Positions 9,894 to 58,449 of a stretch of DNA of 64,000 nucleotides are shown piece after piece. The position numbers were made by a program, and so were the translations under genes. The notes under the pieces were generated by a model. It made no database searches, had not been told where the DNA came from, and saw only the letters and a program-made list of their open reading frames with translations. The stretch covers positions 1,178,001 to 1,242,000 of the forward strand of contig NZ_CP064787.1 of the NCBI RefSeq assembly GCF_017094505.1. The letters are read 5' to 3'. This DNA comes from Halapricum desulfuricans (GTDB taxonomy: Archaea; Halobacteriota; Halobacteria; Halobacteriales; Haloarculaceae). Each line of letters starts with the position of its first letter. The stretch's first letter is position 1.

Positions 9894-10217
9894 GACTCGC
9901 AGGTCCGGTCTGAATCGATCGACGGACGTGCGCGTTCGTCTCTCGTCTGGCGGTCCGTTCACCGCGCGATCTAGTATCGTGCGGTCGGACTCGTCAGCCG
10001 GCACGCTGTCACCTCCAGCCAGCCGCCGCTCTCTGCTCGCAGCCAACATATTGATACTGGTGGCTATACGTCCGTAAAGACATCCGGCACGACGGCGTGT
10101 CAGAGCATTTCGAAATGGGATAGCCACCGGTATGCGTTACCCTGGACTTGTCAAAGAGAGAACGTGACGACATCACGGTGGTGAAAAAAGATACTGACAG
10201 CGCGAACGCCCGCCTGC
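9894..10217. other. Intergenic stretch with a 14-bp inverted repeat
   Basis: No gene is visible in these 324 bases. An imperfect inverted repeat (13 of 14 positions) is present: 10054-10067 reads ATACTGGTGGCTAT and 10120-10133 is its complement with one mismatch. The 52 bases between the arms are not repeated elsewhere in the window. Confidence 0.5.
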
Positions 10218-19451: not shown

Positions 19452-19477
19452 AAACCGCACCGCGTCCACGAGCGCTC

Positions 19478-19559
19478 ATAGTGACCGTTGTACGTCTGTT
19501 CCGGATCGACCGCACGAAGTCGTGCGGTCACACCGGTAAATTGTTACAACGGTCACTAT
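19478..19559. repeat. Palindromic 3'-end element, type copy
   Basis: The outer arms 19478-19492 (ATAGTGACCGTTGTA) and 19545-19559 are a perfect 15-bp inverted repeat. Inside lies a second perfect 10-bp hairpin (GACCGCACGA, 19508-19517 with 19520-19529, loop AG). Relatives are found at 21206, 44688, 45322, 47846 and, decayed, 57343. The right edge overlaps the stop codon of the minus-strand gene at 19559. Confidence 0.85.
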
Positions 19560-20059
19560 CACAGCGGGAGCGAAAACTCCCTGACTGGCACCGACCGACG
19601 ACTGTCCCAGACGGAGAGTCGATCGGCTGTCCACCGGACCGGGTCGATCTCCCGGCGGGCGAGCCGGCGTGCGCTCGCCAGTTCGCCCCCGCGGGCGATC
19701 GTCACGTGTGGCGTGTACTCGTCGCCCTCGATTTCCGCCACGGGATCGAAGGTCTCGCAGAGTCGTTCGTGGAGCCGCTGCAGTCCCGGACTCTCGACGT
19801 CGAGATAGACGACGGGACCGGATCCGGACGACGGTGTCTCGAAGAGATCGATCCCAGACACCCGGAGTTCGAACGGCGCGACACCGGACAGAGTTTCACG
19901 TGCACGCGCGGCCAGCCGAGCCCCGTCCCCGTCGCCGAGTCGCTTGCAGACTAGCGTGTGCTCTCCCCGCTGACGGGCACGCGCACGCGGTACGTCCCGT
20001 GCGAGGTCGCTTGCCAGTCGCGTCACTGCCGACGGCGGCGGGACGTTCAGACTGTACAC
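19559..20059 (-). CDS. 2'-5' RNA ligase-like 2H phosphoesterase
   Basis: A 166-residue protein with both 2H motifs: H34-T-L ('GEHTLVCKR') and H118-V-T ('YTPHVTIARG'). The pair forms the active site of 2H phosphoesterases/ThpR enzymes, which open 2',3'-cyclic phosphates or join 2'-5' linkages in RNA processing. The start is GTG 20059; a CTTATTC box centred 27 bases upstream supports a leaderless transcript. The stop codon abuts the palindromic element at 19478-19559. The natural RNA substrate is unknown. Confidence 0.85.
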   Translation of the reverse strand: MYSLNVPPPSAVTRLASDLARDVPRARARQRGEHTLVCKRLGDGDGARLAARARETLSGVAPFELRVSGIDLFETPSSGSGPVVYLDVESPGLQRLHERLCETFDPVAEIEGDEYTPHVTIARGGELASARRLARREIDPVRWTADRLSVWDSRRSVPVREFSLPL

Positions 20060-20417: not shown

Positions 20418-21203
20418 ATGCCCACGTTCGAGTTGGACGTGTCGGAAGCGACCGCTCGCGGACTGGCCGTCGAGGCGGACTTGCTCGGGTTCGAGACGCG
20501 AGAGGCGTACCTCGAGTGGATCGTCGGACGCCGGTTCGCGATCGACGGCGACGACGAGCGAGCCGCGTTGCTGGCCACCTACGCCGAGCGGGCCGAGGAG
20601 ATGGATCTCGACAACGTCGAAACGCCGCCGATCGACCGCGAGGTCGAGACCGACCCACCCGCCCCCGACGATCTCGCGACGGTCATGGGGACGAACCTCG
20701 CGCCGGACGTCGCCCGGGTCGAAGACGACACCGTGGCCGACAACGCCGATGCGCTCTCGAGCGTGGAGGCCAACCGCTTCAACGAGATCGCGCGCCGGGC
20801 GGTCGCACAGACGCGCGAGCGGCTCGGCGACGGCGTCGGCTCCGGCATCGACTACAGTTCGCGGACGGCGATCGACGACGACCGCCGTATCGGCGAGGAC
20901 ATCGCCGATCTCGACGCGATCGAGGTCCCCGGGTACGACGACGAACTGATCGAACGGCGGCGGCGAGCCGTCGGAGCCGCGCTCGCGCTGCTGCGCGACC
21001 TCGAATCGGCCAAACGAAGCGACTTCGTCGACGCGCTATACGAAGAGTTCCCCGCCGGCTACGACTCCGAATCGGCATGGTGGGAGTGTGTCAAACAGGG
21101 GCTCGAACAGGTCGATCGCGTCAAGCCCGCCCGTGACGGCGGTCACATCTGGAAGTATCGCTCGGTCCCGGGGCGCGTGAAGCGAATCTCGTTTGACGAT
21201 TGA
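20418..21203 (+). CDS. Conserved haloarchaeal hypothetical protein
   Basis: A 261-residue soluble acidic protein. The N-terminus (1-40, 'FELDVSEATARGLAVEADLLGF') looks like a short ribbon-helix or helical module. A long acidic linker follows, with many Asp/Glu (70-150). The C-terminal ~75 residues ('RRRRAVGAALALLRDLE... WWECVKQGLEQVDRV') have the spacing of a winged-helix-like domain ending in basic 'RVKRISF'. Could bind nucleic acid, but no family was recognised. ATG 20418 follows TATA-like ATCGAATATCG. It runs convergent with the HD gene. Confidence 0.7.
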   Translation: MPTFELDVSEATARGLAVEADLLGFETREAYLEWIVGRRFAIDGDDERAALLATYAERAEEMDLDNVETPPIDREVETDPPAPDDLATVMGTNLAPDVARVEDDTVADNADALSSVEANRFNEIARRAVAQTRERLGDGVGSGIDYSSRTAIDDDRRIGEDIADLDAIEVPGYDDELIERRRRAVGAALALLRDLESAKRSDFVDALYEEFPAGYDSESAWWECVKQGLEQVDRVKPARDGGHIWKYRSVPGRVKRISFDD

Positions 21204-21205
21204 AC

Positions 21206-21270
21206 CGGGATACCGGTCCGACCGCTGTAAGGCAGTATCGCTGCGGAGCAGACCTACTGCAGTCACTATA
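21206..21270. repeat. Degenerate copy of the palindromic 3'-end element
   Basis: The right half (CAGACCTACTGCAGTCACTAT at 21249-21269, differing from the type copy at a few positions) matches the right half of the 19478 element read in reverse. The left half keeps only CCGACCGCTGTA. It fills the gap between convergent genes and overlaps the HD-gene stop codon at 21266-21268. Confidence 0.55.
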
Positions 21271-22090
21271 GTTCGATTCGTTCGACGATCCGGTTGCCTT
21301 GCTGGTGAGTGTTGACTGCGACGATCCGGATGTGCTCTTCCAGCCCGGAATCGCGTAACTTCGCCTTGAGGAGGTTGTCGACCTGATAGACGCCGGCGGC
21401 GTTGGTCATCTCGATTTCGACCAGAACGGCGCTGTCTTCGCCCTGCTGGAGGCGCACGTTCTCGATCGCCTGGCTGGAGACTGTGTTGATGCCGCGACCG
21501 CCGTGCTCGTAGGGGATCCGCGAGCGTCCGCGTTCCATATCGAGCGCGTCGGCGACCCTGACGACGCCCGCTTCGGTCGTGAGCGGTGTCTCTTCGGTGT
21601 CGTGACAGAGGATCGCGTGCAGGATCTCGCCTTTGAGCCTGACGCGCTGTTCGACGTCGTAGTACGGGAGCTCCGGGAGGAACCGATCGAGGACGTCCGC
21701 CGCGAGCGGGATCGAGTAGTACGGGTGCTCGTCGCGATGGACGACGTGACCGATGTCGTGAAGCGTCGCGGCGAGCGTGACGATGACCGGTTCGTCGGCC
21801 TCTGGGAGGCCCTGGTCGGCCGCGCCGTTGAACTGGACAGCGTCGCGCTTGAGCAGGTCGTAGAGACACAGCGCGCGGTTGCGCACGATGGAAACGTGTT
21901 TCTGCCCGTGATCGTTGTACCGCTTGCGTGCTACGGGATTGACGTTCTGAGCCGCCAACAGCGCCTGTATCTCGTCGTCGTCTTCGATCCGCTCGAGAAC
22001 GTCGTTGACGCGCTCGTCCGGAAACGGATGGTCCGCGTCGGGGTCGTAGACGCGTCCGGCCGTCTCCCCGTCAGTGTCCTGTTCGCTCAT
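21266..22090 (-). CDS. HD-domain phosphohydrolase
   Basis: A 274-residue metal-dependent phosphohydrolase of the HD superfamily. The doublet is H111-D112 in 'ATLHDIGHVVH', with an upstream histidine in 'YNDHGQKHV' and later 'LCHDTEE' and 'RVADALDMERGRSRIPY' completing the metal site. A C-terminal alpha/beta domain follows. Substrates in this group are nucleotides or cyclic nucleotides; none can be named here. It is transcribed divergently from the DUF502 gene. Confidence 0.86.
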   Translation of the reverse strand: MSEQDTDGETAGRVYDPDADHPFPDERVNDVLERIEDDDEIQALLAAQNVNPVARKRYNDHGQKHVSIVRNRALCLYDLLKRDAVQFNGAADQGLPEADEPVIVTLAATLHDIGHVVHRDEHPYYSIPLAADVLDRFLPELPYYDVEQRVRLKGEILHAILCHDTEETPLTTEAGVVRVADALDMERGRSRIPYEHGGRGINTVSSQAIENVRLQQGEDSAVLVEIEMTNAAGVYQVDNLLKAKLRDSGLEEHIRIVAVNTHQQGNRIVERIEL

Positions 22091-44584: not shown

Positions 44585-44687
44585 GCCAACACAGAGCACG
44601 CCGTCGTTCAATTACTTTTCGAGACTGTCACAGGGACTTGGGTCAGGGACGGCTCGGTACCTGCAATTGTCCGTCGCGACTGTCACC

Positions 44688-44766
44688 GTGGCCGTTGTAC
44701 CGATTTACCGGTACGACCGTACGTATGTGCGATCGACCCGGCACAGACGGACGACGGTCACGATCA
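44688..44766. repeat. Palindromic 3'-end element
   Basis: GTGGCCGTTGTAC at 44688-44700 pairs with GACGACGGTCAC ending at 44761. The middle (ATTTACCGGTACGACCGTACG... CCGGCACAGAC, in part) aligns base by base with the 19478 copy read in reverse. The right end includes the stop codon of the gene at 44764. Confidence 0.8.
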
Positions 44767-45288
44767 GTGGAGCGTTCCCTCGCGAACGTCGTCGTCGTAG
44801 GCGAACAGAGCGTAGCCGACCTCGGCGACGGTATGGCCGGTCTCGGCGGCGATTTCTCGGATCGGCTCGATCATCGTCACGTAGTCGGCGGCGTCGAACG
44901 ACTCCTTGCGACCATCGAGGTAGTCGAGACGGTCCAGGCTCGCCCAGACGCGCGTGTCGACGACGGCGTGACGCCCTGGATCGAGCGCCGTCAGCACGGC
45001 CGAGGCCGTCGGGGCTTTGAAGCCGCTGAGCCCGGTCAGCAGCCGGATCTTCGAGAAGTCCCCGTCGACGGCGAGGACGTTCGCCGTGACCTCACGACAC
45101 CGCTCAGGCGGGTTCGATTCGACGTGATAGGCGCTTCTGGTCGAGTTTTCGTACGCGAGATCGTAGAGCTGATCGCGCGTGAGATGGCCCTGCTCGCGAT
45201 AGGCGGCTCCGATCTCCTCGAGGCGTTCCGGGAGCACGCCCTGGGTCTGTTCGTAGGCGTCGAGATACGTGTCGACGAGTTCGTTCAC
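44764..45288 (-). CDS. HhH-GPD-like protein of unknown specificity
   Basis: A 174-residue helical protein. The segment 'LTGLSGFKAPTASAVLTALD' followed by 'HAVVDTRVWASLDRL' resembles the helix-hairpin-helix and the catalytic Asp region (VDTHV in Nth/MutY) of HhH-GPD DNA glycosylases. The usual catalytic Lys position and the iron-sulfur cysteines are absent, so it may be a degenerate or different enzyme. GTG 45288 is the start; AATATGAA at 45316-45323 fits as TATA. The gene is flanked on both sides by palindromic elements. Confidence 0.62.
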   Translation of the reverse strand: MNELVDTYLDAYEQTQGVLPERLEEIGAAYREQGHLTRDQLYDLAYENSTRSAYHVESNPPERCREVTANVLAVDGDFSKIRLLTGLSGFKAPTASAVLTALDPGRHAVVDTRVWASLDRLDYLDGRKESFDAADYVTMIEPIREIAAETGHTVAEVGYALFAYDDDVREGTLH

Positions 45289-45321
45289 GGTACCTGCCTT
45301 GTGGCCGGGACGACTTCATAT

Positions 45322-45386
45322 TGGCCGTTGTAGCGAGTGCCCAGTACGGTCGTACGGACGGTACGGAACGGACGTACAACAGTCAC
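45322..45386. repeat. Palindromic 3'-end element, short copy
   Basis: GGCCGTTGTA at 45323-45332 pairs with TACAACAGTC near 45375-45384, with one mismatch. The GGAACGGACGTACAACAGTC right half aligns with the type copy. It lies between the HhH-like gene's promoter and the 3' end of the dehydrogenase gene. Confidence 0.75.
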
Positions 45387-45399
45387 CTGGCTGGCCTGA

Positions 45400-46836
45400 T
45401 CAGTGATCGTGGTCGTGTTCATCGCCTCCGCGAGTGAACTGCCCCGAGAACGCCCGCTGGACGACCTCGGGCAGTGCCGGATGGACGTGGACCGCGTTGC
45501 GGACGTCCTGAACCGTGCCAGAGCCGGATTTCATAACGACGACGACCTCCTGGATCAGCGTCGAGGCGTCCGGGCCGACGATGTGACAGCCCAGTATCGC
45601 CCCGTCGAGGTCGATGATGACTTTCACGAATCCGTCGGCGTTCATCGCGTCGCCGCGGGCGGTGTCCCCGTACTGGTAGGTGTTCGTCGCGTACTCGCTG
45701 CCGTCCTCCCGCAGCTCCTCCTCGCCCGCGCCGACGCCGGCGACCTCGGGTGAGGCGAACACGGCGAAGGGCATCGCGCTGTAGTCCACCGGCTGGAGGT
45801 CCTCGCCGAAGATGTTCCGCACTGCGGCCCGGGCCTCGTGATTGGCGCTGTGTTTGAGCAGGTACTCCCCGACGATGTCGCCCAGCGCCCAGACGCCCTC
45901 GGCGTCGGTCCGGAGGTACTCGTCGGTCTCGACGAACCCCCGGTCGTCGGTCTCGATACCGGTCGCCTCGACGTTCAGGACATCAGTGTTGGGCACGCGA
46001 CCCGAGGCGACCAGCAGCGCGTCGCCCGTGACGCTCACTGGATCTTCACCGTCGACGATGCCCGCGTCGTCGCCGTACTCGTAGGGCCGTGCTTCGACCG
46101 TGATCCGACCGTTCCCCTCGCTGACCGCTGTGGCCATGTGGCCCGTGTGAACGGTGAAGCGATCGGCGTAGCGGTCGGTGAAGGCCGCGGCGACTTCTTC
46201 GTCGGCTTCCGGCAGGAGGTTCGGCCGCCGGCCGACGATCGTCACCTCGCTGCCGAAGGTCCCGAAGAAGTGGCCCAGTTCCGCGGCGATGTATCCGCCG
46301 CCGACGATCACGAGGTGCTCGGGTGGGGTCTCCAACTGGAGCGCTTCCGTGCTGGTCATGTACTCGACCTCGTCGATGCCGTCGATGTCCGGAACGGCCG
46401 GGCGCGTTCCGGCAGCGACGAGCACCGTCTCCGCTCGGAGGCGAGTGCCGTCGTCTTCGCCACCGGAGATATCGACAGTTCGATCGTCCACGAATCTGGC
46501 CTCGCCGTCGAACAGGTCGTGTCGAGAGGAGGACTCGAGCCCCCGACGGATCGACTCGGCGTCCTCGCTGACCTCTTCGTTGACTGATCGGACGATCTCG
46601 GCGAAGTCGACGTCCTCGACCGTGGCGTCGATCCGGAACTCGTCGGCGCGCTCGACGGTCTCAAGGACGTCGGCGTGATACAGCAGGTGTTTCGACGGGA
46701 TACAGCCGCGGTTGAGACAGGTCCCGCCCAGCGGCCCCTTCTCGACGACGGCGACCGACTGGCCCTGGTTGGCAGCCACGTTGGCGACATCCAGCCCCGA
46801 CCCGGTGCCGATGACCATGAAATCGAATTCCTGCAT
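45400..46836 (-). CDS. Dihydrolipoamide dehydrogenase family protein
   Basis: A 478-residue disulfide oxidoreductase. It has FAD site 'VIGTGSGLDVANVAA', redox pair C40/C45 ('GGTCLNRGCIPSKH'), NAD site 'IVGGGYIAAELGHFF', 'VWALGDIVGEYLLKH' and C-terminal 'AVHVHPALPEVVQ' with the catalytic His/Glu. All residues for dithiol oxidation are present. No E1/E2 genes are linked, so it could serve a mycothiol-like or mercuric-type disulfide rather than the 2-oxoacid complex. The tail is His-rich ('DEHDHDH'). Confidence 0.9.
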   Translation of the reverse strand: MQEFDFMVIGTGSGLDVANVAANQGQSVAVVEKGPLGGTCLNRGCIPSKHLLYHADVLETVERADEFRIDATVEDVDFAEIVRSVNEEVSEDAESIRRGLESSSRHDLFDGEARFVDDRTVDISGGEDDGTRLRAETVLVAAGTRPAVPDIDGIDEVEYMTSTEALQLETPPEHLVIVGGGYIAAELGHFFGTFGSEVTIVGRRPNLLPEADEEVAAAFTDRYADRFTVHTGHMATAVSEGNGRITVEARPYEYGDDAGIVDGEDPVSVTGDALLVASGRVPNTDVLNVEATGIETDDRGFVETDEYLRTDAEGVWALGDIVGEYLLKHSANHEARAAVRNIFGEDLQPVDYSAMPFAVFASPEVAGVGAGEEELREDGSEYATNTYQYGDTARGDAMNADGFVKVIIDLDGAILGCHIVGPDASTLIQEVVVVMKSGSGTVQDVRNAVHVHPALPEVVQRAFSGQFTRGGDEHDHDH

Positions 46837-47773: not shown

Positions 47774-47917
47774 GTCTCGTCGTGACCGCTGTACCGGAGT
47801 GACCGGTCCCGACCAGCACGACCGCCGCGAGGCCGGTCGGTCTCGTCGTGACCGCTGTACCGGAGTGACCGTACTCTTTCGTGCGGTCGGCCCGGAACAG
47901 GCGGACAGCGGTCACGA
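47774..47917. repeat. Tandem palindromic 3'-end elements with 32-bp direct repeat
   Basis: 47774-47805 is repeated exactly at 47840-47871 (66-bp period). The second unit is a complete hairpin: TCGTGACCGCTGT (47846-47858) pairs perfectly with 47905-47917. Relative to 19478, T-A has become C-G at the same paired position in both arms. The first unit lacks its right arm. Confidence 0.85.
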
Positions 47918-47945
47918 TCAGTCCGTGACTGCATCGCCACCAGTA

Positions 47946-48542
47946 TCAGTCACGGGTCGCGAAGACGAATTCCGTATTCGAACCGAGCGGGTCCGTGGCT
48001 GTTTCGGTCCGGAGAGCGCCGAAACCCGCCGCTCTCAGGCGATCGAGCGTCTGCTTTCGGCCGGGGGCCGAAAAGAACATCTGTCCCCCCATCCAGCCGC
48101 GTCGAACAGTTTCGAACCGGCCGCTCGGCAGCGTCATCAGGAGCCGGCCACCGGGTCGAAGCACTCGCGCGAACTCCGCATAGACGGACCGGTGTTCCTC
48201 GCGCGGCACGTGAAAGACTGCGTGATACGCTGTGATCGCGTCAATCCGCGCGTCCTGGACGGGGAGTGCCGTCATGTCGGCCTGAACGAGGCGGGCTGCT
48301 GGAACAGTCGCTGCGGCGAGATCAAGGTTCCGACGGGCGATGTCGAGACCGACGCTTCCGGGCGGCAGGTTCGCCAGCGTTCGAGCGCCGTCGCCGCACC
48401 CGATATCGAGGACAACTGGGTCGGCAGGCAACGAGGCGAGGAGATCGTCGATCAGTGCCGCGTCTGACCCGTCCGGATCCCGGCGGGCAGCGTAGGTGTC
48501 CGCAATCTCGTCCCAGGCCCGCCGGATCTCGTCGCGGTCCAT
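47946..48542 (-). CDS. SAM-dependent methyltransferase, class I
   Basis: A 198-residue methyltransferase with motif I 'VLDIGCGDGARTLANL' (about 46-61), motif II region 'SVGLDIARRNLDLA', 'VQADMTALPVQDARID' and a type-11 style 'RVLRPGGRLLMTLP'. The fold is complete, but the target (lipid, small molecule or protein) is not evident. ATG 48542 was chosen since 'MDRDEIRRAWDEIADTY' is the usual beginning of this group. The upstream extension was rejected. Confidence 0.88.
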   Translation of the reverse strand: MDRDEIRRAWDEIADTYAARRDPDGSDAALIDDLLASLPADPVVLDIGCGDGARTLANLPPGSVGLDIARRNLDLAAATVPAARLVQADMTALPVQDARIDAITAYHAVFHVPREEHRSVYAEFARVLRPGGRLLMTLPSGRFETVRRGWMGGQMFFSAPGRKQTLDRLRAAGFGALRTETATDPLGSNTEFVFATRD

Positions 48543-48725
48543 GTGGTCGGTACGGTTCCGTTCGCTATCAAGCCAGCGCCCCTGCACCGATCGTGTCGTG
48601 TCCTGCGACGTCGTCACTGCAGTCCTTCCCGGCGACTGCGAAGACACGTTCCGGGACAGGCCGGTATGCCGCCGAGACCGTGTGAGCACGGAGAGAAACA
48701 GAAAGACGACTACAGCATGAGGCCT
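48543..48725. other. Intergenic, no gene seen
   Basis: A 183-bp gap between the methyltransferase start and the MinD-like gene stop, both on the minus strand. No repeats or hairpins with long stems were noted. Confidence 0.4.
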
Positions 48726-57292: not shown

Positions 57293-57342
57293 TATTACCC
57301 GGATGATCGCTCCTATCGACCGCGGCTGACTGGAGAACTCTT

Positions 57343-57410
57343 CGTGACTGCTGTCCCGATGTACCGCTACGATCGCCCGCCGTCGAGCGACCCCGTCACT
57401 GACAGTCCAC
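57343..57410. repeat. Decayed palindromic 3'-end element
   Basis: CGTGACTGCTGTCCCGATGT opens as in the element at 47846 and ends near CCACGTCAG before the recombinase stop, but the arms no longer pair well. Confidence 0.35.
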
Positions 57411-57411
57411 G

Positions 57412-58449
57412 TCAGAACAGCTGATAGATGTGGCGTTCGTACACCTCGCGGACGCGTGACCCCCAGTCGTGAGTGTACGTGTCGATGATGTCCTGGGCGA
57501 CGTCACCACGGAGGTACTTGACGATCCCTCGATCGCCGGTCCGATCACGCAGGTGCGTTGTGAAGAAATGCCGGAAATAGTGGGGCGTCACGTTGTCGGC
57601 CGCGCCAGCGCCGTCGTGATACCAGCCGACATCGCGGGCGTGAGCTTCGACAGTGTGATGGACCATGTCGGTAGTGACCCGCCGGCCCCAGTTGTCGCTC
57701 GTGCCGGTAAAGAGCGGCTTCGCGTCGGAGACCGGATCCGGGCGAACGGCGAGCCACCGAATCAGGACCTCGCGCAGTTCGGGATCGACCGGAACGACGG
57801 TGTCGCGCTGGCGCTTGTTCGAGGCACGACGGTGCTCGCCGTTGGTCTGTGAGCCACGTGACGGCGTTGCAGACACGTACAGTGAGTTGGGCCGCCCGTC
57901 TAACTGCGGACGGACAGTCACACCGTCCCGGGGATCGTCGACGAGATTGAGATCGCGCTGATCCAGATTACAGAGCTCGCCGGCCCGGATCCCGGTCTTC
58001 AGTAGCGTGACGACGATCGCTCGATCGAGCGGGTGGGTGAGGCGATCGACGAACGAGCGCATCTCCGGGACCGAGATCTCGCGTCGCTGTGGGTCCGTGT
58101 CGATCGACTCGTCGATCTCTTCGACGACGAGTGCCATCGGGTTCGATTCGAAGGCGCCGACCTGAGTCATATACCCGTAGAACCGATGGAGATACGAGGC
58201 GTAGGTCGCGACGGTGCTCTCGGCGACAGTCCCACGGAGCCCGTGAATGTACGCCATACAGTCCCGATGTGATGCCTCTCCGAGTGTCTGTCCCGTCGTC
58301 GAGCGGCCCGAGTCGTCTGTCAGGAACGCCTCGAAATCCCGGAGTACGCGCTCGTAGGCGGCCTGTGTCCGCTCGCTTTTGCCCTGATAGGCGATGTCTT
58401 GCAGGAAGTACGCGATCGGGTCTTCCTGCGGATCGTCAGTTCGGCTCAT
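57412..58449 (-). CDS. Tyrosine recombinase/integrase (XerC/D-like)
   Basis: A 345-residue site-specific recombinase. The N-terminal SAM-like core-binding domain (10-115) is followed by the catalytic domain with R155 ('TGIRAGELCNL'), H290 and R293 ('TPHYFRHFFTTHL'), H/W position H299-H300 region, and nucleophile Y325 ('DTYTHDW'). All active-site residues appear intact, so the enzyme could be active. It overlaps its DUF5805 partner by 4 bases (ATGA). An att-like inverted repeat lies beyond its stop. Confidence 0.9.
   Translation of the reverse strand: MSRTDDPQEDPIAYFLQDIAYQGKSERTQAAYERVLRDFEAFLTDDSGRSTTGQTLGEASHRDCMAYIHGLRGTVAESTVATYASYLHRFYGYMTQVGAFESNPMALVVEEIDESIDTDPQRREISVPEMRSFVDRLTHPLDRAIVVTLLKTGIRAGELCNLDQRDLNLVDDPRDGVTVRPQLDGRPNSLYVSATPSRGSQTNGEHRRASNKRQRDTVVPVDPELREVLIRWLAVRPDPVSDAKPLFTGTSDNWGRRVTTDMVHHTVEAHARDVGWYHDGAGAADNVTPHYFRHFFTTHLRDRTGDRGIVKYLRGDVAQDIIDTYTHDWGSRVREVYERHIYQLF

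Follow-up and report, generated by a model that had tools for sequence, protein, structure and literature searches.

Palindromic 80-bp elements with 3-bp target duplications, probably MITE-like and mobile, at stop codons of haloarchaeal genes

The palindromes that recur at gene ends in Halapricum desulfuricans are most probably copies of a non-autonomous, MITE-like mobile element that is moved in trans (probability about 0.76). Each element is 80 bp long, consists of little more than two long inverted ends and lies between 3-bp direct repeats. The unit can be written as TSA-[TA(C/G)(G/T)G...80 bp...]-TSA, with TA(C/G)(G/T)G as the element ends. In many copies the repeat is the TGA stop codon of a gene. 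A mobile DNA that duplicates its target stop and brings spare stops would have a simple route to spread without gene damage, and the element helps account for palindromes that recur at the ends of haloarchaeal genes.

The window analysed here is a stretch of 64,000 nucleotides. An original prediction from this stretch had described five palindromes and a doubtful sixth at 57343, and had considered REP-like elements, RNA-end stabilisers and a new class of mobile palindrome. A covariance model was derived from 30 aligned genome copies. Three of the window copies belong to this training set and owe their scores partly to construction; independent support comes from the whole-genome search and from relatives. 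The window contains the following features.

19476-19561, minus strand (canonical strand): intact copy, 80 bp plus two 3-bp TCA repeats; 107.3 bits, E 1.3e-27, training-set member; TCA/TCA flanks exact
19559-19561, minus strand: target duplication at the end of the 19476 copy, serving as the TGA stop of gene 19559-20059 (minus strand)
19476-19478, no strand: second target duplication (TCA) of the 19476-19561 copy
44683-44766, plus strand: copy with TCA/TCA flanks, E 6e-20; the right TCA serves as the stop codon for gene 44764-45288 (minus strand)
45316-45390, plus strand: degenerate copy, E 3.5e-4; the stop of gene 45400-46836 (minus strand) is 10 bp away
47843-47920, plus strand: copy without 8 nt of the internal loop, E 2.3e-16; paired T-A to C-G change in the arms
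47777-47842, plus strand: left half of the adjacent 47843 copy, repeated in tandem at 66-bp spacing
21189-21271, plus strand: decayed relic between convergent genes, E 0.76
57339-57419, plus strand: doubtful relic, not significant, E 0.25
10052-10135, minus strand: divergent relative from another subfamily with TACTGGTGGC-type arms, E 3e-5; absent from the original prediction

Four of the five predicted copies (19476, 44683, 45316 and 47843) are significant, whereas the fifth, predicted at 21206, is a decayed relic and the one at 57343 stays doubtful. The starts differ by two bases from those first given, since the terminal TSA is part of a target duplication. The predicted contacts with stop codons are correct, both where the terminal TCA is itself the stop and where the stop lies nearby, including that of the minus-strand gene 47946, 26 bases from the 47843-47920 copy. 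The paired T-A to C-G change in the latter copy, also predicted, is present. The minus-strand gene 21266-22090 ends on a TAG that is part of the 21189-21271 relic; the main reason to accept this relic is the position of gene stops within or beside it. This TAG (window 21260-21270) is the first spare stop brought by the element, and the position of the original TGA is altered. A clean empty site for the 19476 copy was sought in relatives, where only fragments are present. This copy predates the split of the Halapricum species.

The palindromes are members of a dispersed family. By the covariance model at E below ~0.001, the 2.94-Mb Halapricum home genome carries about 74 copies, which were examined within the stretches surrounding the hits. 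The family is found in 29 of 59 relatives, and in one of these at least 76 copies are nearly identical. Prokaryote genomes at large were also scanned, with at least 120 matching stretches; those listed are all haloarchaeal, and the named ones belong to Haloarculaceae and Natrialbaceae. Three haloarchaeal matches lie on plasmids, and no copies were found in the phages and viral contigs searched. Elements of 113-115 bp (at loci including L328 and L325) form a second size class, which shares the ends and the TSA duplication but has an unrelated, non-palindromic interior. In addition, a single 41-bp mini-palindrome, TGATACGACCGGCTGT...CAGTATGA, lies past a gene end (L340:627-667) and has the same TSA duplication. 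The superfamily is composed of 80-bp and ~108-bp classes, extends across two haloarchaeal families and has undergone recent bursts. A literature search found no description of this palindrome family in the collection of papers covered.

The flanking repeats read TGA or TCA and agree with each other in nearly every copy. The S base is the same on both flanks in 89 of 92 copies selected by pattern, with both ends free to vary. In a structure-based scan the TSA flanks are concordant in 147 of 152 copies, and no such copies occur in shuffled sequence. The flanks also agree in 39 of 40 young copies of one relative (G030). Both S alleles occur among otherwise identical copies. At two orthologous genes of a same-genus genome, homology extends as far as the end of the TGA stop, with no element beyond it; comparison of the two sites suggests that the TGA most likely predates the insertion and was then duplicated. 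The concordant flanks and the empty orthologous stops identify the repeats as target duplications and thus point to a MITE-like mobile element. The element also has the other attributes of a MITE, being short and non-coding with terminal inverted repeats. Of the explanations first considered, a mobile palindrome is the one borne out, by the dispersal of near-identical copies, by exact target duplications of 3 bp and by empty orthologous sites.

The bases preferred around the duplicated TSA are G, A/T and C on either side, forming a palindromic GWC|TSA|GWC. The target is of the C|TNA|G type expected of an IS5/PHIS-mobilised element. Among 125 non-redundant intact insertions of the 86-bp class, 60 lie exactly on a called TGA stop, 62 at other non-coding positions and 3 in coding sequence, shares that are approximate given gene calls from a simple codon model. 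At the same loci, stops account for 2.8% of all TSA sites and ~11% of the non-coding ones. The predicted enrichment at gene 3' ends holds at the family level and is sharper than claimed, falling exactly on TGA stops. Among young copies, 25 of 40 are exactly at stops. In the home genome, 28 of 74 copies are exactly at stops and 0 of 74 inside a called gene; divergent intergenic regions are under-used, with 14 of 74 copies versus 38% of intergenic bases. In the 114-bp class, 3 of 19 insertions are at stops, which is no clear preference. Insertion on a TGA duplicates and so restores the stop, and the element supplies an in-frame TAG TGA. Elements at stops are evenly oriented, 31 in one direction and 29 in the other.

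Whether the element seeks stops as such is a separate question within the mobile-element reading, and a survivorship account is about as likely as not. Here insertion would be close to random outside genes, and target sequence and purifying selection, with no true stop targeting, would produce the placement. A target preference learnt from non-stop insertions alone raises the expected stop share from 11% to 24%, and coding sites are ~60-fold depleted of insertions. However, the observed share of 49% is about twice the target-weighted expectation (p 4e-9). An excess also persists when stops are compared with equally suitable sites within 60 bp downstream (75% observed versus 55% expected, p 4e-4), although missed genes or better tolerance at stops could yield it.

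In the MITE-like mechanism, a transposase acting in trans would cut a palindromic target near GWC|TSA|GWC with a 3-bp stagger, and the TSA would be duplicated. TGA stops would be good targets because GAC-TGA or a similar sequence is a common ending of haloarchaeal genes. Insertion there would do no harm, as the stop is restored with TAG TGA after it, and insertions in coding sequence would be lost. The stop habit would follow from the target rule and the loss of coding insertions, to which a preference for stops or a tolerance there may add a factor of two. Such a mechanism would account for the ends, the duplication, the target, the bursts and the covariation between subfamilies.

The enzyme would be of the DDE class with an IS5/PHIS-like target habit. 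C|TNA|G targets have been described for PHIS transposons (PMC4482050), making an IS5/PHIS-like enzyme the leading guess by analogy. Transposase genes are present at the PF01609 loci of six genomes, none with these ends, and PF13359 and PF13586 are absent from 12 genomes. A scan of ~2 Mb for ends up to 5 kb apart revealed no longer TSATA-bounded element beyond paired, nested or interrupted copies. A parent autonomous transposon with these ends was not found in the genomes or in the PF01609, PF13359 and PF13586 families searched. A seeming 1.4-kb composite (L274) consists of a truncated copy and an ordinary copy. At L305:1005-2501, a 1.4-kb insertion sequence with a PF01609 transposase interrupts an apparent ~86 bp element. 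With a clear target rule and recent bursts, the missing enzyme can now be hunted.

Besides the failure of these searches to find a transposase with the element ends, two structural properties count against the MITE-like reading. An element of 80 bp is very short for the joining of two double-stranded DNA ends, and the interior is more constrained than is usual in a MITE. Across subfamilies, the outer stem (3-18/69-84) and the inner stem (32-38/49-55) covary strongly. In total, 93.4% of stem cells are paired, and double changes occur in 18 of 27 pairs. The covariation score of the family is 0.494, compared with 0.179 for shuffled and at most 0.148 for slid controls, and the covariation anticipated for the genome copies is thus present at the family level. 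Sequence is conserved in the internal loop (19-25/62-68), most of which does not pair in register. A shifted pairing within the loop, of 21-24 with 62-65, has no covariation support.

These features could also be read as those of an element that moves as a folded single strand, a DNA or RNA hairpin in which all stems must pair and a putative enzyme reads the conserved asymmetric internal loop. Integron attC sites, located at gene ends, have arms that vary in sequence yet keep their pairing, together with unpaired positions that are conserved. The present elements resemble them in all three respects, and REP hairpins offer a further parallel. The inner stem that stays paired as its sequence varies, the conserved unpaired loop, the fixed length of 80 bp, the 41-bp relative and the lack of a DDE partner in the genomes and families searched all favour movement as a folded strand. 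However, neither attC nor HUH chemistry fits a target duplication of 3 bp in which copies that are otherwise the same carry either S allele; attC sites undergo site-specific crossover, and no integron context is seen here. The 113-115 bp relatives share the ends and lack the palindromic interior, and orientation is even. Movement as a folded strand is therefore considered improbable, and the same holds for its extension to an archaeal superfamily of structured elements that move as folded hairpins through the conserved loop, with integration matched to stops as safe harbours.

The MITE-like reading accounts for the covariation in another way. As long as a lineage keeps moving, its two ends would have to match, so that the arms covary between subfamilies; resident copies would decay afterwards. 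Comparison of nearest copies in the home genome gives 119 stem differences, of which 114 are single-sided and one is compensatory. G-T cells (38) are no more frequent than A-C cells (36). Pairing is maintained while a lineage moves and not among resident copies. The proposal that pairing is under selection stands between subfamilies and fails for the resident copies, which show no conservation of pairing on one strand of the kind expected of a structured RNA. The one-sided decay, the equal G-T and A-C counts and the even orientation indicate that pairing is kept in mobile lineages only, and argue against an RNA stabiliser as the cause of the covariation. A 3' RNA structure selected on each copy, acting as an mRNA end stabiliser or terminator, is thus very unlikely despite the enrichment at gene 3' ends, the stable hairpin and the family-level covariation, since the copies also lack a U-run and Rfam has no match anywhere in the 64-kb window. 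Covariation between the arms of a repeat does not necessarily imply RNA function.

The closest described elements, as judged from their descriptions, are the SMRs of Haloquadratum walsbyi, along with haloarchaeal MITEs and PHIS elements with C|TNA|G targets. SMR-A is ~110 bp and SMR-B (HqIRS41) is 80 bp; both have inverted ends and an enigmatic mobilisation (PMC3119063). The two families share a haloarchaeal host, two matching size ranges, prominent inverted ends, a lack of coding capacity and dozens of copies. The SMRs were reported without target duplications, and SMR-A was said to target PATEs/IS605 elements (PMC3119063), whereas the present elements duplicate TSA. No 60-134 bp inverted repeat of comparable strength was found in the first 46 kb of Haloquadratum plasmid PL47. 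MITEs mobilised by DDE enzymes (Tourist/PIF, IS5-like and the PHIS element NuwaII with C|TNA|G) have similar inverted ends, a 3-bp duplication and the C|TSA|G core in a palindromic target. The present elements differ from them in that the searches found no parent transposase and in that interior pairing and length are conserved across subfamilies. REP/BIME sequences with RAYT transposases (PMC3733652) are likewise extragenic palindromes of high copy number. The REP-like explanation fails on structure, as the elements have no GTAG/CGTC tag, are longer (80 bp versus 20-40 bp) and possess a target duplication.

The divergent relative at 10052-10135 falls within the same superfamily, and its TACTGGTGGC-type arms are also present in 114-bp elements of other genomes. 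Beside the 47843 copy (window 47921-47948), TACTGGTGGC follows the TGA stop of the minus-strand gene 47946-48689, and is apparently the remnant end of another subfamily.
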